Source: Thermococcus sp. JdF3 (GTDB taxonomy: Archaea; Methanobacteriota_B; Thermococci; Thermococcales; Thermococcaceae). Taken from it: a stretch of DNA of 64,000 bases. The notes under the pieces are model-generated. The model was not told where the DNA came from and searched no databases. It was given only the letters and a program-made list of their open reading frames with translations. The position numbers and the translations under genes were made by a program. Below are positions 3,269 through 26,366 of this stretch, piece by piece (position 1 is the stretch's first letter; each line of letters opens with the position of its first letter). The stretch lies in the NCBI RefSeq assembly GCF_012027495.1, contig NZ_SNUK01000002.1, forward strand, positions 124,001 to 188,000, in the 5' to 3' direction.

Positions 3269-5401
3269 TCAGGCCTTCAAAAACCTCGCGTTGATGGCAA
3301 CTATCACCGTGCTCAGGCTCATGAGCAGGGCACCGAGGGCGGGGCTGAGCAGGATTCCGTAGCCGTAGAGAACGCCCGCCGCCAGGGGAATCGTGAAGGT
3401 GTTATAGCCAGTCGCCCAGGCTAGGTTCTGCACCATCTTTCTGTAGGTGGCTCTAGCAAGGTGTACAGCAGTTATGACGTCTCCAGGGTCGTTCTTGACG
3501 AGGATTATGTCTGCGCTCTCTATTGCCACGTCCGTTCCAGCTCCGATGGCTATCCCAACATCGGCCTGAATCAAAGCCGGAGCGTCGTTTATGCCGTCGC
3601 CAACCATTGCAACGACGAACCCCTGTTTCTGGAGTTCCTGTATCTTTTCAGACTTCTGATGGGGCAGAACTTCGGCGAAGAAGCCATCCAGACCGAGCTC
3701 TTCGGCAACCCATTTGGCAACTTTGGCGTTGTCTCCGGTGAGCATGTAGGCCTTTATCCCCATCTCGTGGAGTTTTTCCACGGCTTCCCTCGATTCCGGC
3801 CTTATCTTATCTGCCAAAGCCAGAGCACCCACGAGCTTTCCATCGATGACCAGGAACACCACCGTCTTGCCCTGCTCTAAGACCTCCTTAACGCGCTCGT
3901 CCTCTCTCCACAGCCCGTTCTCCTTCAGGAAGCCGGGGCTTACGACGAGAATTTCCTTACCGTTTATAACGCCCTGAACGCCCTTACCGGGCAGGACCTT
4001 GGATTCGCTTACATCATAGACTTCAAGCCCGAGCTCTTTGGCCTTTTCCACTATTCCCCGGGCTATCGGGTGGCTGGAGTGAGCTTCGAGGGCGGCGGCG
4101 TACTTCAGAATCTCCTCCTCGCTCAGTTCGTCCAGCGGGATTACCTCAGTAACCTCAAACTTACCCTCGGTCAGCGTTCCCGTCTTGTCGAAGACAACGA
4201 CCTGCACGTCTTTGGCTCTCTCAAAGGCTTCCCTGTTCCTGATGAGTATGCCCTTCTTGGCCGAAATTGATGTCGAGACCGAAACTACCAGCGGGACTGC
4301 CAGGCCAAGAGCGTGGGGACACGTTATGACCATGACGGTTACCATTCTCTCAAGGGCAAAGACGAAGGGCTTGCCGAGGTAGAGCCACGCCCCGAGCGTT
4401 ACCGTTCCGGCCGTTATGGCTATGAGCGTGAGGTAGAAGGCCGCCCTGTTCGCCAGATCCTGCGTTCTTGAACGCGTTTCCTGCGCCTGTCTGACGAGCT
4501 CAACGACCTGCATGAGGTAGGTGTCCTTTCCAGTCTTCTCTATCCTGACCTTTATTGCTCCCTCAAGGTTTATCGAACCGCCGATGACGGCCTCGCCGGG
4601 CTTCTTGTAAACGGGCTTCGATTCGCCGGTGAGCATCGCCTCGTTGACGCTCGTTTCACCCTCGACTATGACGCCATCGGAGGGCACCTTTTCGCCGGGC
4701 TTGACTAAAACTATGTCGCCCTTTTTCAGCCCGCTCACAGGGACGTCCTTTATCCCATCAGGCGTTACCAGGTGGGCATCGGTGGGCATGAGCTTTATGA
4801 GTTCCTCAAGGGCCCGCGATGCTCCAAGGACGGAGCGCATCTCTATGTAGTGCCCTATAAGCATGATGTCGATAAGCGTCGCGAGTTCCCAGTAGAAGGT
4901 TTTCCCAGAGATGCCGAAGGTGACGGCGGCGCTGTAGAAGAAGGCAACCGTGATTGCCAGAGCTATGAGCGTCATCATTCCCGGGAGTCTCTTCCTCAGC
5001 TCGTCAGCCATGCCCTTGAGGAAGGGCCAGCCGCCGTAGAAGTACACCACCGCCGAGAGCGCAAACAGGACGTAGTGGTCGCCCGGAAAAGTCAGCTCAA
5101 AGCCGAAGAAGTTCTGTATCAGCGGGGACAGAATCAGAATCGGAACCGTCAGTATTGCGGAGACTATAAAACGTCTCTTAAAGTCCTGCATCATCATCTC
5201 ATGGTGCTTTGCATGAGAATGCCCCCCATGTTTCTCATGTTCGCTGTGTTCTTTATGAACGCGGCCATCATCTCCAGCAACTCTGTGTTCTTTATGTCTA
5301 TCTCCATGAATGTGTTCCCCATGTCCTGCTCCATTCATCCCAGAGATCTCTTTCATCTTATCCTGCACGTGCTCCCCGTGCACCTCATCATTTTCTTTCA
5401 T
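3269..5401 (-). CDS. CopB-type copper-transporting P-type ATPase
   Basis: This P1B-type ATPase of about 710 residues exports copper (probably Cu(II) or Cu(I)/Ag) across the membrane. Diagnostic residues are the intramembrane CPH (about 361-363), the phosphorylated Asp in DKTGT (about 405), the actuator TGES (about 258-261) and the GDGIND hinge. The N-terminus has no HMA domain but a His-rich tail (HGEH, HKEH, HSHAKHH) in residues 8-67, typical of the CopB branch. The ATG at 5401 is chosen because GGTG lies 6 nt upstream; in-frame ATGs at 5413 and 5422 and a TTG at 5458 are alternatives, the TTG lying within a TATA-like AT stretch. Confidence 0.9.
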   Translation of the reverse strand: MKENDEVHGEHVQDKMKEISGMNGAGHGEHIHGDRHKEHRVAGDDGRVHKEHSEHEKHGGHSHAKHHEMMMQDFKRRFIVSAILTVPILILSPLIQNFFGFELTFPGDHYVLFALSAVVYFYGGWPFLKGMADELRKRLPGMMTLIALAITVAFFYSAAVTFGISGKTFYWELATLIDIMLIGHYIEMRSVLGASRALEELIKLMPTDAHLVTPDGIKDVPVSGLKKGDIVLVKPGEKVPSDGVIVEGETSVNEAMLTGESKPVYKKPGEAVIGGSINLEGAIKVRIEKTGKDTYLMQVVELVRQAQETRSRTQDLANRAAFYLTLIAITAGTVTLGAWLYLGKPFVFALERMVTVMVITCPHALGLAVPLVVSVSTSISAKKGILIRNREAFERAKDVQVVVFDKTGTLTEGKFEVTEVIPLDELSEEEILKYAAALEAHSSHPIARGIVEKAKELGLEVYDVSESKVLPGKGVQGVINGKEILVVSPGFLKENGLWREDERVKEVLEQGKTVVFLVIDGKLVGALALADKIRPESREAVEKLHEMGIKAYMLTGDNAKVAKWVAEELGLDGFFAEVLPHQKSEKIQELQKQGFVVAMVGDGINDAPALIQADVGIAIGAGTDVAIESADIILVKNDPGDVITAVHLARATYRKMVQNLAWATGYNTFTIPLAAGVLYGYGILLSPALGALLMSLSTVIVAINARFLKA

Positions 5402-5511
5402 ATTCAACACCATATACAGCATCTCTTCGGGGCAAGTATTTAACCATTTTTTATTCAAAATTGAAAGGCCGCGAAGATCGAACCATGACTAAAAGAAAAA
5501 GGGATTCGGAA

Positions 5512-6078
5512 TCATTCCTTCATCATGTCCTCGATTTCGCGGAGCCTCTTTCCAGGTTCGAGCTCCCTCTCCGCCGATGAGGCCATCAGCCCTTCGGCCA
5601 TCTCTACGGTTTCAATGTCGAACTCGCCCGTTAGGATGCTCTCGCTGGTCAGGTCTATCATGGTGTTCAGAGCTTCCTCCAGGTTCTCAACCTTGCCCAT
5701 CGCCTTCTCGAACTCGACCTGCATCTTCGCCACGTCCTCCGCTCCGGGACCTTCCGCAATGCTCCTGACAACGTCCTTGCTGAACTGGATGAAGTCCGCG
5801 GAAACCTTGACGAGCTCCCTCTGAATCTCGGCCTCCTCCATGAGAAGGAGCAGGCGCTTCGCCTGCTTTATCCTCTCCTCAAGGGAGAGGTACTTCATGG
5901 CACTCCTCTTGAGGAGCGCTTCATCGCCGAGCTTCGCCGCTTCCTTCCCCTGAAGGAAGATTTTACGCTTCAAGTTTTCGAGATTGGTAATGTAGTGCTT
6001 CAGCGCCATCTTCGCCTTCCTCATGCGTATCTTCCGCTCTATCTCCTTCTCCTCCTTCGACTTCCACAGCTTAACCAT
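5512..6078 (-). CDS. ESCRT-III/Snf7-like coiled-coil protein
   Basis: The 188-residue protein is nearly all helical. A strongly basic N-terminus (KSKEEKEIERKIRMRKAK) is followed by a long helix pair (about 25-95) and further helices with acidic character toward the C-terminus, the plan and size of Snf7/CdvB proteins. Segments such as DFIQFSKDVVRSI and FEKAMGKVENLEEALN resemble the middle Snf7 helices. It is the last gene of the kinase-ATPase-phosphatase operon, with GGGAGGTG before the ATG at 6078. In ESCRT systems such proteins polymerise on membranes and are removed by Vps4. The family call comes from my reading of pattern and context and needs a profile search. Confidence 0.6.
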   Translation of the reverse strand: MVKLWKSKEEKEIERKIRMRKAKMALKHYITNLENLKRKIFLQGKEAAKLGDEALLKRSAMKYLSLEERIKQAKRLLLLMEEAEIQRELVKVSADFIQFSKDVVRSIAEGPGAEDVAKMQVEFEKAMGKVENLEEALNTMIDLTSESILTGEFDIETVEMAEGLMASSAERELEPGKRLREIEDMMKE

Positions 6079-6083
6079 GATCG

Positions 6084-6824
6084 TCACACCTCCCTAAACA
6101 CAACAACGGTTACGTTGTCCTCGGTAACCTTCAAAGCTTCCCCAATCAGCGCCTCCACGGTCGCTTTGGGGCTGGATTCCAGGGTGAGCTTTTCTATAGT
6201 CCCGTCATCCAGGTAATCATGAAGCCCGTCTGAGCTGAGAATCAGAACGTCCCCCGTTCTCATTTCCCACACGTAGGTGTCGACCTCAGGGTCAACGCCG
6301 AGGGCCTTTGTAACAACGTGCCTCATGGGGTGCCTTTTAACTTCCTCCTCGCCGATGACTCCCCTCTCAAGAAGCCCCTGAACCACCGAATGATCCCTCG
6401 TCCTTGCAATGATCTTTCCGTCCCGCACCAGGTAAGCCCTGCTGTCGCCGGTGTTCGCTATCAAAGCTTTTCCGTTCCTTACAAAGGTACTCACAAGGGT
6501 AGTCCCCATTCTTCCAGGGGCTTTTGAGGCATCCAGTATTCTGCGGTGGGCAGTCTCGTAGGCCATCAGGAGAAGCCTTTCAACGTCCGTCTCGCCCAGT
6601 TCTTGGCGGTAGTTCTCCTCAAAGACCTCGCTTAAGGTTTCAACCGCGGTTCGCGCCGCAAGCTCGCCTGCACTGTGCCCGCCCAGCCCATCGGCAACCG
6701 CGAGAAGGTAACCGTCCCCGAGGGGCAGGACGAGGAATGCATCCTCGTTTTTTTCCCTGCCCCCCGGATGGGAAATTCCCCAGACCCTGCCTTCAACACC
6801 ACAGGAGATGCCTCCCCCGCTCAT
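6084..6824 (-). CDS. PP2C-family protein Ser/Thr phosphatase
   Basis: This 246-residue metal-dependent phosphatase shows the PP2C motifs in order: REKNEDAF, VADGLGGHSAGE (metal-binding Asp and Gly), GTTLV, ANTGDSRAYLV, RDHSVV, SSDGLHDYL and DNVTVV. No membrane segment is visible. The ATG at 6824 overlaps the stop of the AAA ATPase gene (ATGA), and the gene runs directly into the Snf7-like gene, so the three proteins should be made together. It is the obvious counterpart of the kinase encoded two genes upstream and probably dephosphorylates the same targets. An in-frame start at 6845 would overlap the ATPase gene further and has a weaker ribosome site. Confidence 0.92.
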   Translation of the reverse strand: MSGGGISCGVEGRVWGISHPGGREKNEDAFLVLPLGDGYLLAVADGLGGHSAGELAARTAVETLSEVFEENYRQELGETDVERLLLMAYETAHRRILDASKAPGRMGTTLVSTFVRNGKALIANTGDSRAYLVRDGKIIARTRDHSVVQGLLERGVIGEEEVKRHPMRHVVTKALGVDPEVDTYVWEMRTGDVLILSSDGLHDYLDDGTIEKLTLESSPKATVEALIGEALKVTEDNVTVVVFREV

Positions 6825-8002
6825 CCGCCGAACTCCTCCGCCCATTTTTCGTAGCGCTCGATGTCTTTCTTTGTCAGAGGGCTCTTTATCTTCCTGAAAG
6901 CCTCCTCGAAGTCCCTCATCCCAAGCGGCCTGGTTCTGAGGGAGCGCTTCCTCAGCTCCTCAAGCGGAAGGCTGGCCAGCTTGTGGAGATCCCTGTTTTC
7001 CTCGCGTATCATGTTCCACACGGCCTCCTGGCAGAGGTTCCTGATGTCCCTGCCAGAGTACAGTCGCCTCACGCTCTCCTCCGCTATCGCGTCGAGGTCG
7101 AGCCTTGATATGTCCAGGCCTTTGGTGTGGATTCTTATGATGGACTTGGTCGCCTCTTTATCGGGAAGGGGGACGTAAATCCTCTTGGGGAAGCGCGAAA
7201 GGATGGCTTCGTCCAGATCCCAGGGAGTGTTGGTCGCCGCCAGCGTGAGAACGAGCTTATCACTCTCCCCTTCGTGAAAGCCCTCAAGCTCGGTGAGAAG
7301 CGTTGAGAGCATCCTCCGGGTAGCTTCGCTCGTATCGTTGGAGCGCCTCGTGGTGAGCGCGTCTATCTCATCAAGGAAAACTATGCTTGGTGCCTTTTCT
7401 CTCGCAACCTCATAAAGGGCCGAGATAATCTTGCTTGACTCTCCAAAGTACTTGCTCAGCACGCTCGAAGCCTTGACGTTGAAGAAGGCCGCGTTTAGGC
7501 TCCCAGCCGCAGCTGAAGCTAACAGGGTCTTTCCGGTTCCCGGAGGCCCGAAGAGCAGGATTCCCTTCCACGGCTGAACAGCGGCGGGCTTTCTCAGGGC
7601 AGATATAACCACGGTCTCCATCACGAGCATCTTAACGTTGCTGAGACCGCCGATATCGTCCCAGGTGATGGTTGATTTTGCCATGAGGCCGAGCACGTAC
7701 TCCCTGAACTGGTCATCTTCATCTTCCTCAGGCCGGGCTTTCCTGCCTTCAGCGCTCACCACCGCCTTTCTGCCGTATTCGCCCCGCTCTATCTGCCCGG
7801 CCACCTCCTCCCACTTTCTCGCCTTCCTGAGGTACAGCTCCCCGTTGTAGGGAACGTGACGGGCAAGCTCCCTCAGGAGTGAGGCACATCTCAGGGCGCT
7901 CCTCCTCGCCGTTTCCATATCCTCCGCGGAAACTGCTTTTTCGAACTGCTTCTTTGTCCGCTCAAACTCGCTCAGCAGGGGACCCGACAGGTCAACCGGC
8001 AT
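6821..8002 (-). CDS. Vps4-like AAA ATPase with MIT-like N-terminal domain
   Basis: The 393-residue protein has a three-helix N-terminal part (about 8-75) shaped like an MIT domain, an acidic linker, and one AAA module. Visible are ITWDDIGGL (about 112-120), Walker A GPPGTGKT (152-159), Walker B IVFLDEID (207-214), sensor 1 AATN (255-258), and SRFPKRIYVPLPD (269-281). The last element, followed by a C-terminal helix ending KKDIERYEKWAEEFG, is typical of the Vps4/katanin clade rather than of proteasomal or Cdc48 ATPases. The start at ATG 8002 lies 6 nt behind GGGGAGGTG; the frame is open to a GTG at 8008. It lies between kinase and phosphatase genes and beside Snf7-like genes, which supports an ESCRT-disassembly role. 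Confidence 0.85.
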   Translation of the reverse strand: MPVDLSGPLLSEFERTKKQFEKAVSAEDMETARRSALRCASLLRELARHVPYNGELYLRKARKWEEVAGQIERGEYGRKAVVSAEGRKARPEEDEDDQFREYVLGLMAKSTITWDDIGGLSNVKMLVMETVVISALRKPAAVQPWKGILLFGPPGTGKTLLASAAAGSLNAAFFNVKASSVLSKYFGESSKIISALYEVAREKAPSIVFLDEIDALTTRRSNDTSEATRRMLSTLLTELEGFHEGESDKLVLTLAATNTPWDLDEAILSRFPKRIYVPLPDKEATKSIIRIHTKGLDISRLDLDAIAEESVRRLYSGRDIRNLCQEAVWNMIREENRDLHKLASLPLEELRKRSLRTRPLGMRDFEEAFRKIKSPLTKKDIERYEKWAEEFGG

Positions 8003-8004
8003 TC

Positions 8005-9705
8005 TCACACCTCCCCAAATCCAAGCTGTATCTTGTGAACTATTATCTCGGCCTTCTCGACCAGCTCCTCCGGAACGTCAAGGCCGTTTTCAAGGCGGAG
8101 CCTGAGCTGCTCCCTCAAACCCAATAACTCGTCCCTCACCTCTCCCCTGGCATAATGGAAGAGGTCGTCGGCATACTTGAGCGCGTTAACCAGGTCGTTG
8201 AGCTTCAGGTACAGGAGAAACAGCTCGCCGGCGTAGTACGCGCTCCGGGACAGGTCGTTGAGCGAGACGCTCTTGCTGAGGTTCTCGCGGTAGTTCATCC
8301 CAAGGAACTCGGCTATATCCTTCTGGAGCTCCGCAACGCTCTGGTAGCGCTCCTCCTTGTTCTTCGCCAGACACTTCATTACGATGGGCTCGAGGGGCTT
8401 GGCCTCTGGATTGAGCCGGCTTGGTGGGACCGGCTCCTCAAAGGTTATCTTCGAGGCAACCTCCACAAAGTCCTCTCCCTCGAAGGGCGGCCTTCCTGTG
8501 AGGAGCTCATATAGAACCGCCCCTATCTGCCAGACGTCGGTTCTTTCATCGGTTCCTCCAAAGCGGGAGCTTATCTGCTCGGGGGCGGCGTAGAGAGGGG
8601 TGAAGCTGACCGTGTGGGTTGTCCTGCTCTCCTTGAGGAGCTTGCTCAGCCCCCAGTCGCTCACCTTCGCCCGGCTGTTCCTCAGGAGTATGTTGCTCGG
8701 TTTGAGGTCGCGATGGATTACGCCCTTGGAATGGGCGTACTTCAGCCCCTCGGCAACGTCGAAGATTATTCTGGCGGCCTTTTCAGGGCTCACGGGCTTT
8801 CGAAGCTTTCCAAGGCTCGTCTCGCAGTATTCCATCTCAAGGTACGGAACCGGGAAGATGTTGTAGTCATAGAGTTCAACTATGTTGGGATGGTTGAGGA
8901 GCGACCAGTTCCTGACCTCTCTGAGGAACGCCTTACCTCCCTCTTCAGTCAGACTGAGCGGAACTTTGAGGGCAACCACACTTCCATCGTGCTTCTCCGC
9001 CCGGTAGACCCGCGCAAAGCCGCCCTCACCGATGGGTTCAACCTTCCTATACCTTGCGAACAGCTCCTCCAGCAGCGACTTGGGGGAAGCGGGAGCGGAA
9101 CCCTCAACCGGAACCTGAACGGGTTTTTTCCGCTCCCTTGGTCTTTCAAGAACCTCGGCTCTGACCTTCACCTTTGCACTCACCGCACCGGAGCGGACGG
9201 TTATCCTGGCGCTTACCTTCCCGGGATTTCTGGGAACGGCCCTCAGCGTCTGAGAGACGTATTCGCCCGGCCTCACGTTCCTGAAGTAGACCCTCGTTGA
9301 ACTGAGCTCGAAGTACCTTGCCAGGTCTCCCAGGTCAACCTCAACGTTTATCGTTCCCCTGAGGAGATTCCTGAAGCCCACCTTGACCGGAACGTCCTCT
9401 CCAGCGTAGAGGCTGTGCGGAATCTCAACCACCAGGGACTTCCGGAGGAGCTCTTTCATGTCCTCCCTTGGAACGGGGGGAACAGGAGGGGCAGGTCCAG
9501 GGTAGCGGTATTTGTACCTCCTCTTGCTGGACTTTGAAACGTCCTTAAGCAGATGTTTTATCAGGCGTCCAAACCACATAACGACCACTATGAATATTAT
9601 GAATCCCGCTCCACCTCCAAAGATGAAGGAGATGAGCACGACCACGATGAAGAGCTTCACAAGGCTCTCCGCGATGTCATCGTCAAACCAGTGCCACATG
9701 TGCAC
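8005..9705 (-). CDS. Membrane-anchored Hanks-type Ser/Thr protein kinase
   Basis: Numbered from the upstream in-frame GTG at 9735, the protein has an N-terminal hydrophobic hairpin (about 21-57), a Pro-rich linker (79-90), a beta-rich domain (about 98-197) and a full kinase domain (about 228-478): GEGGFA loop (236-241), Lys257, Glu273, HRDLKPSN (341-348), DWG in place of DFG (360-362) and APE (384-386). The last 95 residues are helical. GGAGG lies 7 nt before the GTG at 9705, which I prefer as the start (566 residues). Kinase and sensor-like parts probably face the cytoplasm. It heads the operon with the Vps4-like ATPase, PP2C phosphatase and Snf7-like gene. Confidence 0.9.
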   Translation of the reverse strand: MHMWHWFDDDIAESLVKLFIVVVLISFIFGGGAGFIIFIVVVMWFGRLIKHLLKDVSKSSKRRYKYRYPGPAPPVPPVPREDMKELLRKSLVVEIPHSLYAGEDVPVKVGFRNLLRGTINVEVDLGDLARYFELSSTRVYFRNVRPGEYVSQTLRAVPRNPGKVSARITVRSGAVSAKVKVRAEVLERPRERKKPVQVPVEGSAPASPKSLLEELFARYRKVEPIGEGGFARVYRAEKHDGSVVALKVPLSLTEEGGKAFLREVRNWSLLNHPNIVELYDYNIFPVPYLEMEYCETSLGKLRKPVSPEKAARIIFDVAEGLKYAHSKGVIHRDLKPSNILLRNSRAKVSDWGLSKLLKESRTTHTVSFTPLYAAPEQISSRFGGTDERTDVWQIGAVLYELLTGRPPFEGEDFVEVASKITFEEPVPPSRLNPEAKPLEPIVMKCLAKNKEERYQSVAELQKDIAEFLGMNYRENLSKSVSLNDLSRSAYYAGELFLLYLKLNDLVNALKYADDLFHYARGEVRDELLGLREQLRLRLENGLDVPEELVEKAEIIVHKIQLGFGEV

Positions 9706-9763
9706 GGCTATCCCTCCATCCGCGCTAATTTCCACAGTCCCGGGCTCTCCTTAATCCTTTTTG

Positions 9764-9831
9764 ATTCCAATTTGGAATATCCTCCGAGCGGAATTTGGAG
9801 ATATGACAAGTTTTTGAGAGAGAATTTGGAC
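9764..9831. promoter_or_regulatory. Palindrome and TTTGGA box cluster upstream of the kinase operon
   Basis: The gap between the two halves of the ESCRT-like locus holds a perfect palindrome, ATTCCAA-T-TTGGAAT (9764-9778), and two more GAATTTGGA copies (9791-9799 and 9822-9830). The same box recurs upstream of the other half of the locus (13443-13519). A weak TATA-like AAGGATTAAGG on the minus strand (about 9749-9759) lies just downstream of the palindrome. This fits a binding site for a shared regulator, which is inference. Confidence 0.5.
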
Positions 9832-9841
9832 AAAATGAAAG

Positions 9842-10441
9842 TCACTCAAGCTCCGCCTCCTCCTTCCGCTCCTTCGTCACTTTCTCGGCTGCAGCCCTCG
9901 GCTCAAGCTCGCCCTCCTTAACGGCCTGTATCGTCCTCATAATCTCCTGCAGCTCTTCATCCTCCTCAAACTCAATTCCAGCCCCGAGGGCCTGGTCGGT
10001 ATAGCCGAGCATGGTGTTGAGGTTTTCGTTGAGGTTCCGGGCGTCGAGCTGCATGCTGACGAGGTGTTTCTCAAGCTCCTCCGGGGACATTTTCCTGAGA
10101 AGTTCCCAGGTGGGGGTTCCTTTCAGTATGGCCTCGTTCTCCTTGATTATCAGGAGATTGGCCACGAGCATGAGTTGCTTGTTGAGTTGGGCGTGGGTGT
10201 TCTGGAGGCTCTGCTTCTTCCTGTTCAGGGTTTTAATCTTGGTCGCTATGGTGAGCTCCTCGCTTTTGCTCCTCGCTTCCTTTGCCCTCTGGAACAGCGC
10301 CGCTATCTGGGCGTCAATCTCGGCTATCTCGTCCTCTATCTTCCGTATCTGCATGTCGAGTTTTACCTGGTTCTCCCTGAGCTGGTCAATCGGTATGTCC
10401 AGGGGGTTCTTCCTCCCGAAAAATCTGGAAAGGAACCCCAT
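9842..10441 (-). CDS. ESCRT-III/PspA-like coiled-coil protein (paralogue B)
   Basis: The 199-residue protein starts with a short amphipathic basic segment (MGFLSRFFGRKNP), as in membrane-binding ESCRT-III and PspA/Vipp1 proteins, followed by a long helical hairpin (about 20-95) and an acidic helical tail. It is a clear paralogue of the protein encoded at 10441-11037, sharing a pattern around NLIV-K--E--L, a Trp-Leu pair, then PE-LE--LV---LD-R. Its ATG overlaps the upstream stop (TGATG), with GGAGG upstream. It is the last gene of the four-gene upstream operon. Polymerisation on membranes and handling by the Vps4-like ATPase are inferred. Confidence 0.6.
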   Translation of the reverse strand: MGFLSRFFGRKNPLDIPIDQLRENQVKLDMQIRKIEDEIAEIDAQIAALFQRAKEARSKSEELTIATKIKTLNRKKQSLQNTHAQLNKQLMLVANLLIIKENEAILKGTPTWELLRKMSPEELEKHLVSMQLDARNLNENLNTMLGYTDQALGAGIEFEEDEELQEIMRTIQAVKEGELEPRAAAEKVTKERKEEAELE

Positions 10442-11037
10442 CACAGCTCCTCCTCCGTCTCTTTTTCAAGTTTGGGCGAGGCTATCTCGCTGGCGACCTG
10501 TTCAATGTCCGCTTCGCCGGTCTCGACTCTGGCCCAGGCCTCCATGAGCTCCCTCTCGGTCTGGTCTTCCGTTCCCTCAAACTCGGCTATGTCCATCTCG
10601 AAGACCCTGTTCAGGCTCTCAACCATCTCGTCGAACTCCCTTCCGTCGAGGGTCACCTTCACGAGCACGCTTTCCAGCTGCTCCGGCTCGACTTTGGAGA
10701 GCTTGTCCCACAGGCCTATCTTCCTTAGCTCCTTCTCATACTTCTTGACGACTATCAGGTTCTTGACGAAGGTGTACTGCTTCTGTGCCGTCGTGAAGTC
10801 CCTCAGCCTGAGCTTCTGCTCCATGTCGAGGCTTTTGATCTCCTGGGCGAGCATCTTCTTCTTGAGCACGTCCGCCCCGATGCCCTCCTGGAAGAGCTGC
10901 TTCTTTTTCTTCTCTATGCGCTCTATCTCCTTCTTCGTCCTCTCAAGCCTGTTCCTGAGGCGTATCTCTTCCTCCTGAAGCTCCCTGAGGGAGAGCTTTT
11001 CGATTGGGTTCTTCCTAAACCTGTCAAGTATTCCCAT
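10441..11037 (-). CDS. ESCRT-III/PspA-like coiled-coil protein (paralogue A)
   Basis: This 198-residue helical protein begins MGILDRFRKNP, an amphipathic basic start like that of its downstream paralogue and of PspA/ESCRT-III proteins. A long charged coiled coil (about 20-95) contains a run of KKKKQ residues, and the C-terminal third is acidic. The ATG at 11037 sits 5 nt behind GAGGTGG; a GTG at 11046 is in frame but inside the ribosome site. Two such paralogues in tandem suggest a mixed filament. Snf7-like and PspA-like assignments belong to the same superfamily, and I cannot separate them by eye. Confidence 0.6.
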   Translation of the reverse strand: MGILDRFRKNPIEKLSLRELQEEEIRLRNRLERTKKEIERIEKKKKQLFQEGIGADVLKKKMLAQEIKSLDMEQKLRLRDFTTAQKQYTFVKNLIVVKKYEKELRKIGLWDKLSKVEPEQLESVLVKVTLDGREFDEMVESLNRVFEMDIAEFEGTEDQTERELMEAWARVETGEADIEQVASEIASPKLEKETEEEL

Positions 11038-11047
11038 CTCAACCACC

Positions 11048-12871
11048 TCACTTCCGTATCAACACGAGTCCGAATCCATCTATGTATTTCACCAGATTGC
11101 CGTCGCGGCCGATTTCATAGAACGCCCGCCTCACGTATTCCTCATCACCGCAGTCGAGGCACTCGCTGAGAGGCAGATAGTCCCTGCCCTCAAGCTTTTT
11201 CCTCACGCAGTCCCTGACCTTCGCGTACATCTCCTCATCAAGCTCAAGGCGCACCAGCGGAGCGAGTGCCTTGGCGTAGCGGTCGTTGGGGTTGTGAATT
11301 ATCTCGCCGCTCTCTGTATCGAGGAGTATCAGCGAGACGTTCTCCGAGTAGAAGTTCCTGTGGAAGTCCTCCGATGAGACGTATTTTCTCACCCTCTCCT
11401 CGAAGCCGAGGGGAGAGGCTATAACGAGAACCGTCCTAGTGTTGTCCTTCGAGTCCCTCGCATCGATGAGGTGCACGTTGATCTCCGCCAGACTCAGGGG
11501 ATCCGTGTCGAGGCCGAGCTCCGCCAGCCTTTCAACCCTCGTCAGGTAAATTCCCCTAACGAGTATCCGCTCCTTCCTTCCGAGAAGCTTCTTCTCCTTC
11601 AGGGTTATCTCAACGTACCTGTTTTCCGGCAGGTTCTTGAGGGACTTCTCGTCAAGCTTTCCAGCAAATCTTGATGTGTCCTCACCCTTCCTCTCCTCTA
11701 GGCTCTCAACGGAGTAGGTTTTGCCAAGGAGCCGCACTTCCCTTGCGAATTTGCTCTTCATCCTGCCCACGAAGTTCAGCTCCCCTATCCTTGCCTCGTC
11801 CCTGAGAACCAGGCGGGAGCCCTTCTCAACCTTGCCCGACATCGCGAGGATTTCCTCTATCCTGCCCTTCAGCAGGCTCTCCTTCTCCGACAGCTCAAGC
11901 TCCCTTTTCCTGAGCTCCATCTCCCTGGATTTCAGCTCAAGCTCTCTCCTCCTGAGCTTCTCCTCAAGGAGCCTCGCCTCGCGCAGAGCCTCCTCCCTGG
12001 CGCGGGTCAGCTCCTCCTCCAGCTTTCTCCTCAGCTCCTCGTCCCTGAGCTCAAGTAGCCTCTTCTCAAGCTCGGCCTTTTCCCTCTCGAACCTCTCCAC
12101 GAGCTCCTCCCTTTCCCTGCGGAGCCTCTCAATCTCCTCAAGGCTCGATGACCGGAGTTCCGCCTCAAGCCTCTCGCGCTCTCCCTCGAAGAACGCCACC
12201 ATTTCGGCTATTCTCTTTTTCAGCCCGCGAACCTTTGCCTCGTAGCTCTCCCTGACAGCTTCAACTTCCTCCGCCTTTTCCCGCTCCCACTCTTCCATGA
12301 GCGTTCTGAACCAGCCGTATTTGCTCGCCTCGTTTATCGCCGCATCTACCTTCTCGCGGTAGCCCTTCCACGTTCTCTTCAGATAGTATCTGAGAGGAAG
12401 CTTTATCTCCGGGTCTTCGAGCTGCTCCTCTATCCACCTGTCCATACCGAGGTAGTAAGTTTTGAGGAGCTGAACCATCTCCGGCTCCCTGCGGTAGAGC
12501 TTTTCAAGTACGTCCTCCCTCGTCGTGATCTCAAAGACGTTGTACTTCAGTATCTCATCTATCACGCCTATCTCACGTTCTGAGAAGCGCTTTTCTGCAG
12601 GTGGGAAGTCCTCGCCCTTCTTCCGGAAGCTCCACGCCAGTATCGCCAGAGATGCCTCGAACTTTGACCTGAATGCCGTGTCGAGGTCCCTCAGAAAGTC
12701 CCCGCATTCGCCTTCGAGATAGCGCGAGTACGAGTCGAGAATCCTCTCCCACAGGTTCCTCCGGGTCTCGAAGTCCTCAACGGTCACGTCCCTGCCCTGC
12801 CTCAGAATCCTCTCCGCCGGCCGGAGCAGGTTCTTCACACATTCCGAGTTTCCCTCGTTGAACACCACCAT
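11048..12871 (-). CDS. Large coiled-coil protein of unknown function in the ESCRT-like locus
   Basis: The 607-residue protein has a helical N-terminal part (1-190) with Trp-rich stretches, an extended Glu/Arg/Leu coiled coil (about 195-365), a mixed alpha/beta region (about 370-540), and a small C-terminal domain holding CLDCGDEE (about 565-572) and a likely winged-helix ending (FYEIGRDGNLVKYIDGFG). No signal peptide or membrane helix is seen. I do not recognise the family. It lies between the unknown 172-residue protein and the tandem ESCRT-III/PspA-like genes, 1 nt from the latter's ribosome site. A scaffold or adaptor role is plausible but unproven. Confidence 0.8.
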   Translation of the reverse strand: MVVFNEGNSECVKNLLRPAERILRQGRDVTVEDFETRRNLWERILDSYSRYLEGECGDFLRDLDTAFRSKFEASLAILAWSFRKKGEDFPPAEKRFSEREIGVIDEILKYNVFEITTREDVLEKLYRREPEMVQLLKTYYLGMDRWIEEQLEDPEIKLPLRYYLKRTWKGYREKVDAAINEASKYGWFRTLMEEWEREKAEEVEAVRESYEAKVRGLKKRIAEMVAFFEGERERLEAELRSSSLEEIERLRREREELVERFEREKAELEKRLLELRDEELRRKLEEELTRAREEALREARLLEEKLRRRELELKSREMELRKRELELSEKESLLKGRIEEILAMSGKVEKGSRLVLRDEARIGELNFVGRMKSKFAREVRLLGKTYSVESLEERKGEDTSRFAGKLDEKSLKNLPENRYVEITLKEKKLLGRKERILVRGIYLTRVERLAELGLDTDPLSLAEINVHLIDARDSKDNTRTVLVIASPLGFEERVRKYVSSEDFHRNFYSENVSLILLDTESGEIIHNPNDRYAKALAPLVRLELDEEMYAKVRDCVRKKLEGRDYLPLSECLDCGDEEYVRRAFYEIGRDGNLVKYIDGFGLVLIRK

Positions 12872-12880
12872 GCTATCACC

Positions 12881-13399
12881 TCACAGCAGAAGGGAGAGCT
12901 CCTTCTCCAGCTTTCTGGCCAAGTCGTCAACCGCGGTGCCGTAGCCTTCAATGCCGATGACAACCCTCGTTCCCTCTCCGGTCTCCTCAACGGAGGCCTC
13001 TATCTCCATCCTGCCCTTTTTGGTGTACGCCCGGTACCTCGAAACGTTCCCCTCAGAGGAGACGTAGTAAGCTCCAAATTTTGAGAGGACATATTTCAGC
13101 AGCTTCTGAACGACTATGGGCTCTTCCCCGGCCAGATACTCAAGCTCCCTCCTGTTGGGGGCAACCTTCGAGCCTATGTCCTCCGGCTCCACCCGGTACA
13201 CCCTTACCTTTCCCTCCGTTGGGGGATCGAGCTTTGAGAGAAGCTCCTCCGCAAAACTCTCAACGTCGCTGGCCTCTATTATGAAGGATATCCCCCTAAC
13301 CTTGGAAATTCTGGCACGGTTTGACCACTTATCCAGCAGGTATTCAACGCGCTTTCGCTCGGCGTCGTTTTCATAACCCACTATGAACAGATGCGGCAT
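12881..13399 (-). CDS. Unknown 172-residue protein, first gene of the ESCRT-like upstream operon
   Basis: This soluble alpha/beta protein starts with a beta strand and helix (MPHLFIVGYEND) and ends with an amphipathic helix (VDDLARKLEKELSLLL). Its C-terminal half alternates strands (GRMEIEASV, TRVVIGIEGYG), like a SRPBCC/coenzyme-binding or TBP-like fold, but I cannot assign it. The start is supported by GGGGTGA 5 nt upstream. A TATA box (13451-13458, minus strand) and four TTTGGA boxes precede it. It is the promoter-proximal gene, 9 nt before the coiled-coil gene. Confidence 0.75.
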   Translation of the reverse strand: MPHLFIVGYENDAERKRVEYLLDKWSNRARISKVRGISFIIEASDVESFAEELLSKLDPPTEGKVRVYRVEPEDIGSKVAPNRRELEYLAGEEPIVVQKLLKYVLSKFGAYYVSSEGNVSRYRAYTKKGRMEIEASVEETGEGTRVVIGIEGYGTAVDDLARKLEKELSLLL

Positions 13400-13442: not shown

Positions 13443-13519
13443 TTTTGGAGTATATAATGTTTTCGGCAATTTGGAGAAAAGATGAACATGTCCAAATTTT
13501 CCATTTTGTAAAATTTGGA
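13443..13519. promoter_or_regulatory. Promoter with TTTGGA operator cluster for the ESCRT-like upstream operon
   Basis: On the minus strand ATTATATA (13451-13458) is a good TATA box, placing the start of transcription about 13428. Around it are TTTTGGAG (13443-13450), CAATTTGGAG (13467-13476) and a perfect 10-bp inverted repeat, TCCAAATTTT (13491-13500) with AAAATTTGGA (13510-13519), separated by 9 nt. The same box occurs at 9764-9831. The arrangement fits cooperative binding by one dimeric regulator. Confidence 0.55.
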
Positions 13520-13529
13520 AGAAGAGAGA

Positions 13530-14090
13530 TCAAGTCCTCTCGATGACGTCCTTCAAAATGCCCTCAACTTCACCGGCGACCTTTAGCAGCTCGTCGTTTC
13601 CGGTTATGCTCATGGCCTTCGTTGGAAGCAAAAGCCCCACATAGGTCTTTCCATCCTTTACGTAGACCACTATGTTGCACGGAAGGAACGAACCGCTGTT
13701 GATGTCGATGCCTATGAGCTGGCTTGAGAACTTCGGGTTGCAGGCGCCCAGTATTACGTACGGCTCCATCTCAAGATCGAGCTTTTCCTTGAAGAGCGTG
13801 TCAACCCTGACCTCGCTGAGGACTCCGAAGCCCTCCTTCTTCAGCTCTTCCTTGACCTTTGCCACCGTCTCGTCAAAGCCGGTCTTAACCTCCCGGACGT
13901 AGGCATACTCCTTATGGGACTCCTCCATTTCCTTCATCCCGTGCATGCCGTGGTGGCCTTTGCCCATCCCCTTGCCGTGGCCCTTGCAGCCTCCTCCTTT
14001 CTTTCCCTTACCTTTCATCCCGGCCATTTTGCCGTGCATCACCTTCATGCCGCCCTTCATCTTTTCCATCTCTCCGGTTTCACCGTTCAT
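13530..14090 (-). CDS. DUF302 protein with Met/His/Lys-rich N-terminus
   Basis: The 186-residue protein has a low-complexity N-terminus (about 1-60) made of Met, His, Gly and Lys (MHGK, CKGHGKGMGKGHHGMHG), which looks metal-binding, and a DUF302 domain (about 62-186) with the usual YVILGACNP and FLPCNIVVY motifs. The function of DUF302 is not established. Two more DUF302 genes occur in this window (24085-24498 and 38146-38499), both near metal or redox genes. GGTGAT precedes the ATG. No membrane segment is visible. The Met/His content suggests Cu(I) or Cu(II) handling, an inference. Confidence 0.85.
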   Translation of the reverse strand: MNGETGEMEKMKGGMKVMHGKMAGMKGKGKKGGGCKGHGKGMGKGHHGMHGMKEMEESHKEYAYVREVKTGFDETVAKVKEELKKEGFGVLSEVRVDTLFKEKLDLEMEPYVILGACNPKFSSQLIGIDINSGSFLPCNIVVYVKDGKTYVGLLLPTKAMSITGNDELLKVAGEVEGILKDVIERT

Positions 14091-14202
14091 GTCAAATCAC
14101 CTTTTTCTTTTGTCAATGTCTTTTTAATTTGAAGCGTTAATAGGGTTATTATGAGCAAAATGGTAATTAAAAGCCCCAAAAATTTCCAATATTGAAGGGT
14201 AC

Positions 14203-24532: not shown

Positions 24533-25390
24533 TCAGGCCGCGCTCTCCGCGGCCTTTTTCTCTCGGTTCAGCACCGGTTCCTTACCGTATGCCCTGAGCA
24601 CCAGATAGAGCGCCGTTATGAGGTAGCCAAACTGTACAATCACCCTGCCCCACTCCATGCTGGTGGAATAGCCGAAGAGCACGGCAAAGACCGAGCCGAC
24701 AGCCCCTTTGTGGTGCCAGATGCTACCGCTCGGAATCCCGAGGTCGTAGGCTTCAGCAGAGAAAACCCCGAGGGAATAACCCTCCTCCTCTGCCCATTCT
24801 ATCAGCTCGTGCGTGCCGTATCCGGCAAGTCCCGCGGCAACGAATACCAGCAGGATGGAGCTGTAGTAAAAGAACCTCTTCAGGTCTATGCGCATCCCCA
24901 CGCCGTATATCAGATAAGCCAGCACGAGTGCCCCCGTCAGCCCCCCGATAAGGCCGAGAAGCGTCCCCGTCAGATTCTGGGTCATGAAGGGCGTAAGGAA
25001 CAGGACTGTCTCAAGCCCCTCCCTGAAAACCACGATGAAAGTGAAGCCTATCAGGGCGAACGGGGATATTGACCTCCTTACCCTGCTCTCTATCTCCACC
25101 CTGATGTCCTTCCCCTTTGTGGCCATCCAGTAGATCATGCTTGTGAGGACTATCACGGCGAGGTAAGAGGCCACCCCTTCAAAGAGCTCCTTCTCGGCCA
25201 AACCGCCGTAGAACTTTAGTATGCCAGCTCCAAGGAGGACGCTGACGCCAACCGACAGAGCGGTGCCTATCCACACGTCCCTTATCTGGTTCGCCCTGTT
25301 TGTCCTTCGCAGGTAGGCTATTATTATCGCCACGATTATGGCCGCCTCAAGGGCCTCCCTGAAGGTTATGAGGAAAGCGCCAACGCTCAT
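24533..25390 (-). CDS. FTR1-family high-affinity iron permease
   Basis: The 285-residue protein has seven membrane helices and both family motifs, REALE (11-15) and REGLE (123-127), whose Glu residues carry iron through the membrane. It ends in a short Lys/Ala-rich tail. GGAGGTGA precedes the ATG. A palindrome resembling a DtxR/IdeR box lies 17 nt upstream (25407-25424), consistent with iron-dependent repression. No partner ferroxidase or periplasmic protein is encoded next to it. Confidence 0.92.
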   Translation of the reverse strand: MSVGAFLITFREALEAAIIVAIIIAYLRRTNRANQIRDVWIGTALSVGVSVLLGAGILKFYGGLAEKELFEGVASYLAVIVLTSMIYWMATKGKDIRVEIESRVRRSISPFALIGFTFIVVFREGLETVLFLTPFMTQNLTGTLLGLIGGLTGALVLAYLIYGVGMRIDLKRFFYYSSILLVFVAAGLAGYGTHELIEWAEEEGYSLGVFSAEAYDLGIPSGSIWHHKGAVGSVFAVLFGYSTSMEWGRVIVQFGYLITALYLVLRAYGKEPVLNREKKAAESAA

Positions 25391-25406
25391 GGATTCACCT
25401 CCGATT

Positions 25407-25424
25407 TTTTAGGTCAATCTAAAA
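25407..25424. promoter_or_regulatory. DtxR/IdeR-like palindrome upstream of the FTR1 gene
   Basis: TTTTAG-GTCAAT-CTAAAA is a perfect 6-bp inverted repeat whose TTAGGT...CTAA form resembles the known DtxR/IdeR iron box. It ends 17 nt before the iron permease start codon. The rest of the gap to the peroxiredoxin gene (25425-25656) holds no convincing gene. Confidence 0.55.
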
Positions 25425-25656
25425 TTCCTAGGATGGCTTATGAGTCTTATTTTTGCCAAATCGAAATTTCGTACAATGGGCGGAAAACATCCCCTATCCT
25501 CAACGGAATATACCACGTGTCAAACCCAGAAGGTTCGAAGGGGGTATCCCAGGATATGAAAACCGACCGGACTGCTCAAATCTGTGAAAGAGGGCGAAAG
25601 CTTGACTCCATCTTGGTAAAAATGGGGTAGAAAAATTTACAGAATGGAAAGGCTCA

Positions 25657-26226
25657 TCATATCTTTCCTACCAGGTCGAGGCTAACCTCAAGGGTCTCCT
25701 TACCGGGCTCCCAGCTCGCCGGGCAGACCTGTCCCGGGTGCTCGCGGACGTACTTTGAAGCCCTCAGCCTTCTCAGAATCTCCTTTGCGCTCCTTCCTAT
25801 GCTTAGGTCGTGCATCTCCATGTGGACGACCTTTCCATCGGGGTCTATTATGAAGGTCGCCCTCCATGAAACGCCCTCGTCCTCGATGTAGGTCCCGAAA
25901 AGGCGGCATATCTTTCCGGCAGGGTCCGCGAGCATCGGGTACTTTATCTTCCCTATCGCGGGTGAGGTGTCGTGCCAGGCCTTGTGGACGTAGGCGGTAT
26001 CGGTGGAAACGCTCAGGATCTCAGCCCCTTCTTTCTTGAACTCTTCGTAATACTCAGCCAGCTCCTCAAGCTCCGTCGGACAGACAAAGGTAAAGTCCGC
26101 AGGGTAAAACGCCAGAACAACCCACCTGTCCCTGTAGTCCGAAAGCTTAACCTTCCCGATGTCGTCCTTCTCCGGGAAGTAGGCATCGGCCTCAAAGTCG
26201 GGAACGATTTCTCCAACCTTCACCAT
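25657..26226 (-). CDS. Peroxiredoxin (AhpC/Prx family)
   Basis: The 189-residue thiol peroxidase reduces hydrogen peroxide and organic peroxides. The peroxidatic Cys49 lies in FYPADFTFVCPTE, and a second Cys occurs in GQVCPASWEPG (about 169), as in typical 2-Cys enzymes. The length fits AhpC rather than the 215-residue archaeal Prx6 type. Its promoter carries a TATA box and a GGTTTG half-site (26261-26275), as do the rubrerythrin and rubredoxin-SOR promoters in this window. Confidence 0.93.
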   Translation of the reverse strand: MVKVGEIVPDFEADAYFPEKDDIGKVKLSDYRDRWVVLAFYPADFTFVCPTELEELAEYYEEFKKEGAEILSVSTDTAYVHKAWHDTSPAIGKIKYPMLADPAGKICRLFGTYIEDEGVSWRATFIIDPDGKVVHMEMHDLSIGRSAKEILRRLRASKYVREHPGQVCPASWEPGKETLEVSLDLVGKI

Positions 26227-26260
26227 TCCGGTTCACCTCGAATTTAATTAGGCCACTCGA

Positions 26261-26280
26261 ATTTATATGGGTTTGCCTAA
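26261..26280 (-). promoter_or_regulatory. Peroxiredoxin promoter with GGTTTG half-site
   Basis: On the minus strand the TATA box ATATAAAT (26261-26268) directly follows CAAACCC (GGTTTG on the plus strand, 26270-26275). TTAGGC (26248-26253) and GCCTAA (26274-26279) also form an inverted pair around the TATA box. The half-site is shared with the promoters at 44597 and 45205. Confidence 0.45.
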
Positions 26281-26366
26281 CAAAATGGAAAGTTTTGGAT
26301 TCAGGAGCATTCAACTTTGAAAGGCAAATTTAAAAGGTCCCAAAGCGAACTCCTCCAGGTGATGAG

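Follow-up and report, generated by a model that had tools for sequence, protein, structure and literature searches.

Euryarchaeal systems built around the endosomal sorting complex required for transport (ESCRT) have been surveyed by Makarova et al. (2024; PMC10936438), whose "Main" clade counts the Thermococcales among its members. As described there, its parts are Vps4, ESCRT-III, arCOG09748 (with a C-terminal winged helix), arCOG08177 (a Cas2-like plus a TBP-like fold) and, often, a membrane kinase and a phosphatase; in many members the former is a membrane serine/threonine kinase with an immunoglobulin (Ig)-like region and a helical C-terminal domain, encoded alongside a PP2C-type phosphatase. 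A 2021 review still described the Thermococcales as lacking ESCRT-III (PMC10117752), and as far as our literature search could find, no function has been established for the ESCRT systems of Euryarchaeota that divide with FtsZ. Here we examine an eight-gene cassette (g1–g8) of Thermococcus sp. JdF3, located at 5512–13399 of a 64,000-nucleotide window (the whole stretch of DNA analyzed; contig NZ_SNUK01000002.1, positions 124,001–188,000). Its gene content places the cassette in the "Main" clade, as a compact version—it has the same parts list, and the system type is therefore already known. Its copper context appears to be unreported; the literature search returned no report of a link between copper and archaeal ESCRT. 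This copper neighborhood is the most specific functional clue that the locus offers.

A compact ESCRT cassette in a Thermococcus genome

The likeness to the published clade extends over Vps4, ESCRT-III, a coiled-coil/globular protein, a small two-domain protein, a membrane Ser/Thr kinase and a phosphatase (Table 1). Vps4 and ESCRT-III are encoded together, and a membrane serine/threonine kinase with a helical C-terminus accompanies a PP2C-type phosphatase. That kinase, g4, comprises an N-terminal hydrophobic hairpin (residues ~22–57), a kinase domain (229–466, with the motifs HRDLKPSN and DWG) and a helical C-terminus; a CARDB match in a paralogue makes an Ig-like region probable as well. The catalytic motifs of g2, g3, and g4 are all intact. 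The Pfam scan gave no meaningful match for g6, g7, or g8, and a sequence search found no PDB homologue of g8. By size, position and the layout described by Makarova et al. (2024), and by its coiled coil in the case of g7, g7 is probably of the arCOG09748 type and g8 of the arCOG08177 type. The differences lie around the cassette, since the main text of that paper makes no mention of copper genes, a CopR-type site or a contrast between compact and multi-kinase loci. The Cdv system, which serves cell division and vesicle formation in Sulfolobus and other archaea of the TACK group (Thaumarchaeota, Aigarchaeota, Crenarchaeota, and Korarchaeota), is alike in its ESCRT-III-like hairpins (the nearest solved structures being CdvB and CdvB2) and its Vps4/CdvC ATPase, but here there is a kinase/phosphatase pair, no CdvA neighbor was seen, and the ATPase clade is separate from CdvC.

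The first-pass annotation of this DNA had described eight same-strand genes with overlapping ends, and the open reading frame listing bears this out at the same coordinates. Transcribed in the order g8, g7, g6, g5, g4, g3, g2, g1, the minus-strand genes mostly overlap by 4–25 nt or lie 1–9 nt apart; only g5 and g4 are farther from each other, with 106 nt between them. All eight, in the same order, recur in four further genomes at 64–94% identity. In all, close Vps4 relatives (~70% identity or more) were found in 20 of 37 genomes of the group, the compact locus in five (G000, G011, G020, G021, and G024) and larger, expanded loci in 13 other mapped relatives.

Structure, phylogeny and synteny together back the first-pass reading at its core, namely that this is an ESCRT-III/Vps4 module accompanied by a kinase and a phosphatase. 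The AlphaFold2 model of g1 (predicted local distance difference test score, pLDDT, 81) shows a long hairpin followed by C-terminal helices (helices at 11–53, 56–110, 116–153, 158–172, and 178–190), i.e., the α1–α2 hairpin plus C-terminal helices of CdvB- and CHMP-like proteins, and its best nine PDB matches by Foldseek were all CdvB or CdvB2 of Sulfolobus islandicus (probability 0.99–1.00, E = 0.01–0.09). From this model we assign g1 to ESCRT-III with good confidence. The ATPase g3 matches the Pfam families AAA (1.6e-38) and Vps4_C (6.4e-9, above its cut-off). A tree of AAA domains, from which katanin and spastin were left out, resolved three groups: Thermococcus-type Vps4 (support 100/100), TACK CdvC (100/98), and Cdc48 plus PAN (100/97), with the compact-locus ATPases forming a single clade (99/95). 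When Cdc48/PAN serves as root, Thermococcus-type Vps4 and CdvC are sisters, as expected for Vps4. The proposed Vps4-clade identity is thus upheld by the Vps4_C domain and by placement outside Cdc48/PAN, within a tree lacking katanin and spastin. The annotation had staked its reading on three points—a Snf7/PspA-like hairpin in the predicted structures, an ATPase that does not group with other AAA families, and genes that stay together in relatives—and the ESCRT-III-like g1 model, the ATPase outside Cdc48/PAN and the conserved gene order speak for it on each.

The solo Vps4 of Thermococcales (Makarova et al., 2024) is a related ATPase that also carries Vps4_C, but it stands alone and forms a clade of its own (100/100). 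Solo Vps4 genes without ESCRT-III neighbors occur in our collection too (L058–L063), on a long branch with the second Vps4 of the expanded loci.

Copper genes and a predicted CopR site

The first-pass annotation ended the locus at g1 and g8; the gene set it drew stands, but it overlooked the copper genes directly outside, a copB-like copper-translocating ATPase gene at 3269–5458 and a DUF302 gene at 13530–14090. These two flank the cassette on the same strand in 5/5 compact loci. In two genomes (G001 and G013) they are neighbors, 58 bp apart, and the cassette is absent. As both genomes nest inside the cassette-bearing group of the copB tree (93/94), the arrangement appears to be old there, which suggests that the cassette was lost; the DUF302 tree lacks the strength to speak on this point. 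Also encoded nearby is a homologue of CopR that has TRASH-type cysteines and a tail rich in His. A single 10-gene operon that includes copB and DUF302 was considered and dropped because the cassette and copB each have promoter-like elements of their own.

In the compact loci the gap between DUF302 and g8 spans 130–148 bp and contains a conserved transcription factor B recognition element (BRE) and TATA box; the ESCRT unit therefore has its own promoter. Farther upstream lies a site that was first noticed as a palindrome and afterwards compared with the published CopR motif TTNNCAWWWTGNNAA, which derives from chromatin immunoprecipitation (PMC7830388). The match is exact in G000, G020, and G024 and has one mismatch in G011 and G021. 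Exact matches number 4 in the whole of G000 (2.14 Mb), vs. 2 for a reversed-pattern control, and 208 background upstream regions of congeners hold 0 exact and 2 one-mismatch matches; at the density seen genome-wide, a 130-bp gap would hold an exact match with a probability of ~1–2 in 10,000. None of the 8 g8 promoters checked in expanded loci contains an exact site. Within the first 27 kb of the window, one-mismatch CopR-like sites were found upstream of DUF302 (14152–14166), in the gap between an FTR1-type iron permease gene and a peroxiredoxin gene, and upstream of the latter; another lies between copA and copR.

As described for Pyrococcus furiosus, the copper response and CopR regulon include peroxiredoxin and iron-transporter genes, and the CopR site immediately precedes the BRE (PMC7830388). 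Our window resembles that regulon in the motif, the CopR/copA pair and the clustered peroxiredoxin and iron-transporter targets; it differs in that the site is farther from the BRE and in that the searched parts of the paper name no ESCRT gene. The FTR1-type permease and peroxiredoxin genes occupy 24533–26291, with their one-mismatch sites at 25636–25650 and 26277–26291, consistent with a clustered copper regulon.

Table 1. Genes and regulatory elements of the cassette and its immediate flanks, in window positions.
Feature	Position	Strand	Product and evidence
copB-like gene	3269..5458	-	Copper-translocating P-type ATPase, His/Met-rich N-terminus; TIGR01511, 643.6 bits vs. cut-off 397; directly downstream of cassette
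g1	5512..6087	-	191 aa, ESCRT-III (Snf7/CdvB-like) by model; conserved C-terminal helix, resembling a MIT-interacting motif by eye
g2	6084..6845	-	PP2C-type Ser/Thr phosphatase; motifs ADGLGG, GDSR, SDGL; PP2C_2 4.8e-17
g3	6821..8008	-	Vps4-type AAA ATPase, 395 aa; GPPGTGKT, DEID, SRF; Vps4_C; helical N-terminus
g4	8005..9735	-	Membrane-anchored Hanks-type kinase; Pkinase 2.2e-47, hydropathy, motifs
g5	9842..10444	-	200 aa, probable ESCRT-III paralogue; AlphaFold2 model, Foldseek, homology to g6
g6	10441..11046	-	201 aa, probable ESCRT-III paralogue; hhalign to g5
g7	11048..12871	-	607 aa: helical N-terminus, long coiled coil, globular C-terminal half; probable arCOG09748 type
g8	12881..13399	-	172 aa, first gene of the unit; probable arCOG08177 type
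Core promoter of ESCRT unit	13451..13466	-	BRE CCGAAAAC (13459-13466), TATA ATTATATA (13451-13458); conserved in five compact loci
Predicted CopR site	13498..13512	-	TTTACAAAATGGAAA, exact match to published motif TTNNCAWWWTGNNAA
DUF302 gene	13530..14090	-	DUF302 protein, Met/His/Gly-rich N-terminus; PF03625 1.1e-18; directly upstream of cassette

A copper-responsive membrane machine?

The explanation that we favor for the whole, and on which we are about evenly balanced, is that of a phospho-regulated ESCRT system, a compact "Main"-clade member, which became rewired to copper stress in the compact lineage. Under this model, g1 and the g5/g6 pair would be ESCRT-III subunits that form polymers on the cytoplasmic side of the cell membrane; remodeling and recycling them would fall to the Vps4 ATPase g3, and g7 and g8 would be adaptor proteins. 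The membrane kinase g4 and the phosphatase g2 would gate assembly by phosphorylation, with subunits or ATPase as conceivable substrates. The position of the unit between two copper genes and its CopR-type operator suggest that copper switches the cassette on through CopR, and the unit is therefore probably made under copper stress, where it could reshape or seal membrane that is damaged or loaded with copper, or shed it. Inputs to the compact version would then be one kinase and, probably, copper-dependent transcription; in the expanded relatives, the same machine could take its inputs from many receptor-like kinases. As to the membrane task, we infer repair, shedding or vesicle export. The first-pass suggestion of vesicle release has lost some ground, for the 2021 review reports, as unpublished, that disrupting any of three Vps4 homologues of T. 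kodakarensis left vesicle production unaffected (PMC10117752). The fully specified version, in which an archaeon that divides with FtsZ uses a CopR-controlled, kinase-gated ESCRT-III/Vps4 machine to repair or shed membrane damaged by copper, or to package the metal for export, is decidedly more tentative than the general one.

Several observations weigh against this explanation. Among the proteins, no MIT domain was detected in g3; the MIT-like helices proposed at first pass are plausible from the sequence pattern of the N-terminal 80 residues, but neither PF04212 nor a PDB profile matched this region, and hhalign against the MIT domain of CdvC gave 20–27%. The Foldseek E-values exceed 0.001, and the alignments behind the g1 and g5 models are shallow. 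Around the promoter, 31 bp separate the predicted CopR site from the BRE, vs. the BRE-abutting site described for P. furiosus (PMC7830388). What abuts the BRE in compact loci is a second element, a degenerate form of the palindrome CTCCAAAATGGAG, which in expanded loci (e.g., L041 and L052) occupies this place in the g8 promoter. Exact copies of CTCCAAAATGGAG are rare elsewhere in the expanded-locus genomes, and it may therefore be a dedicated operator of the ESCRT promoter. The core CAAAATGGA is common to this palindrome and the CopR-like site, which could thus derive from, or duplicate, the operator of another regulator; with that core in place, chance would supply the other four bases of the CopR motif (outer TT/AA) in something like a few percent of AT-rich promoters (an estimate, not a computed value). 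Exact CopR-type sites elsewhere in these genomes are often intragenic, and as the cassette has its own promoter, its neighbors need not share its function. Because of the shared core, the chance match of a few percent and the site's distance from the BRE, we regard CopR control of the ESCRT unit as predicted but somewhat doubtful.

Much of this would also fit a plainer history, in which the ESCRT system is the same but its copper link incidental. The cassette would have inserted into a metal-resistance island while keeping its own regulator, and would serve general envelope maintenance or vesicle tasks. The conserved promoter of the unit, the expanded homologous loci that lie elsewhere without copper genes, the core CAAAATGGA shared with their ESCRT-promoter palindrome and the ease with which the outer bases match are all what such a history would leave behind. 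It sits less easily with a linkage kept in 5/5 compact genomes, with an exact match in a genome that holds only four, and with an upstream site that is conserved in compact loci even as the BRE-proximal palindrome is degenerate. We consider an incidental link a serious contender, though one that falls short of likely.

Should copper indeed induce the cassette, metal stress would be connected to ESCRT membrane remodeling in archaea, and a membrane-maintenance role outside cell division would be suggested for ESCRT. The compact version, with its predicted copper switch, makes the role of a non-division archaeal ESCRT testable: it points to one specific inducer and to a candidate regulator, and some natural relatives lack the cassette.

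Identity of the coiled-coil proteins

A different reading would have the coiled-coil proteins as generic helical hairpins that scaffold the kinase and the AAA ATPase, rather than as ESCRT-III. The Pfam Snf7 model scores g1 below threshold (E = 0.0023, 18.1 bits vs. a curated cut-off of 27.3) and g5 at E = 0.12. Across 37 genomes, 23 of them from the genus, Snf7 recovered g1 from almost every genome whose locus is complete (E ~2.6e-4 to 0.05, never above the cut-off), and genus members without the locus gave a best E of 0.1 or worse. Because a Sulfolobus acidocaldarius control also scored only below the cut-off, this threshold is not a sharp test in archaea. Profile comparison detected no relation between g1 and g5/g6, nor any between the three and CdvB of TACK archaea, the latter failing because the profiles are very shallow, nearly single-sequence. 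The AlphaFold2 model of g5 (pLDDT 76) has CdvB2 as its first Foldseek match (probability 0.97) and CHMP3 among the others, but unrelated helical bundles, designed ones included, also match; g6 is tied to ESCRT-III through its full-length homology to g5 (hhalign 98.7%, 3.7e-16), which marks the two as paralogues. On this evidence the pair is probably ESCRT-III.

The ESCRT-III superfamily also has bacterial members, the PspA/IM30 (Vipp1) proteins, whose hairpin is built in a similar way, and the first-pass annotation had seen in g1, g5, and g6 a Snf7/PspA build. The Snf7 half of this claim holds for g1, with its CdvB-like model, and less firmly for g5 and g6; as to the PspA half, PF04012 gave no match at E ≤ 1 for any of the three. 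Generic hairpins would account for the low Snf7 scores, the designed bundles and the empty CdvB comparison, but hardly for nine best g1 matches that are all CdvB or CdvB2, nor for the association with a Vps4_C-bearing ATPase, and the "Main" clade has an independent published ESCRT-III assignment (Makarova et al., 2024). We think this reading improbable.

Least credible of all is an anti-virus or conflict system of kinase, phosphatase, and AAA ATPase, which the patchy distribution (20/37 genomes) and kinase matches to the PADLOC models PD-T4-6 and Mad6 might recall, but whose matches cover the kinase domain generically, in a cassette that has no nuclease or toxin partner and sits in a metal island with no recognized defense gene beside it. 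A defense system was accordingly rejected on generic kinase and AAA matches, as was a viral origin, no relative having been found in viral contigs.

Expanded loci

The expanded loci (L035–L057; e.g., L037/L038 of G012) reach ~30 kb, though some maps are partial owing to contig ends or the stretches covered. What they usually add is a second Vps4, further PP2C genes (in one case a fusion with a membrane region), up to five recognized kinases whose N-terminal portions run to hundreds of residues, and single-pass proteins bearing PEGA and beta-propeller repeats. This suggests many receptor-like kinase inputs to one ESCRT machine. No expanded locus examined adjoins copB or other copper genes.

One of their kinases, of 665 aa (L042 12122–14119 in G017, with equivalents in L037 and L050), has a MIT- or TPR-like helical N-terminal region and no transmembrane segment. 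It matches PF04212 at E ~1e-4 in a one-genome search and at 0.002 in Pfam; a claim for a MIT kinase was dropped because the region is equally TPR-like in PDB. Finally, a metagenome-assembled genome named Archaeoglobus sp. GB_MAG3_049 carries an expanded-type ESCRT locus (L075) whose Vps4 and g1 are 76–83% identical to the Thermococcus versions; either the locus was transferred to Archaeoglobus or its contig is mis-binned.

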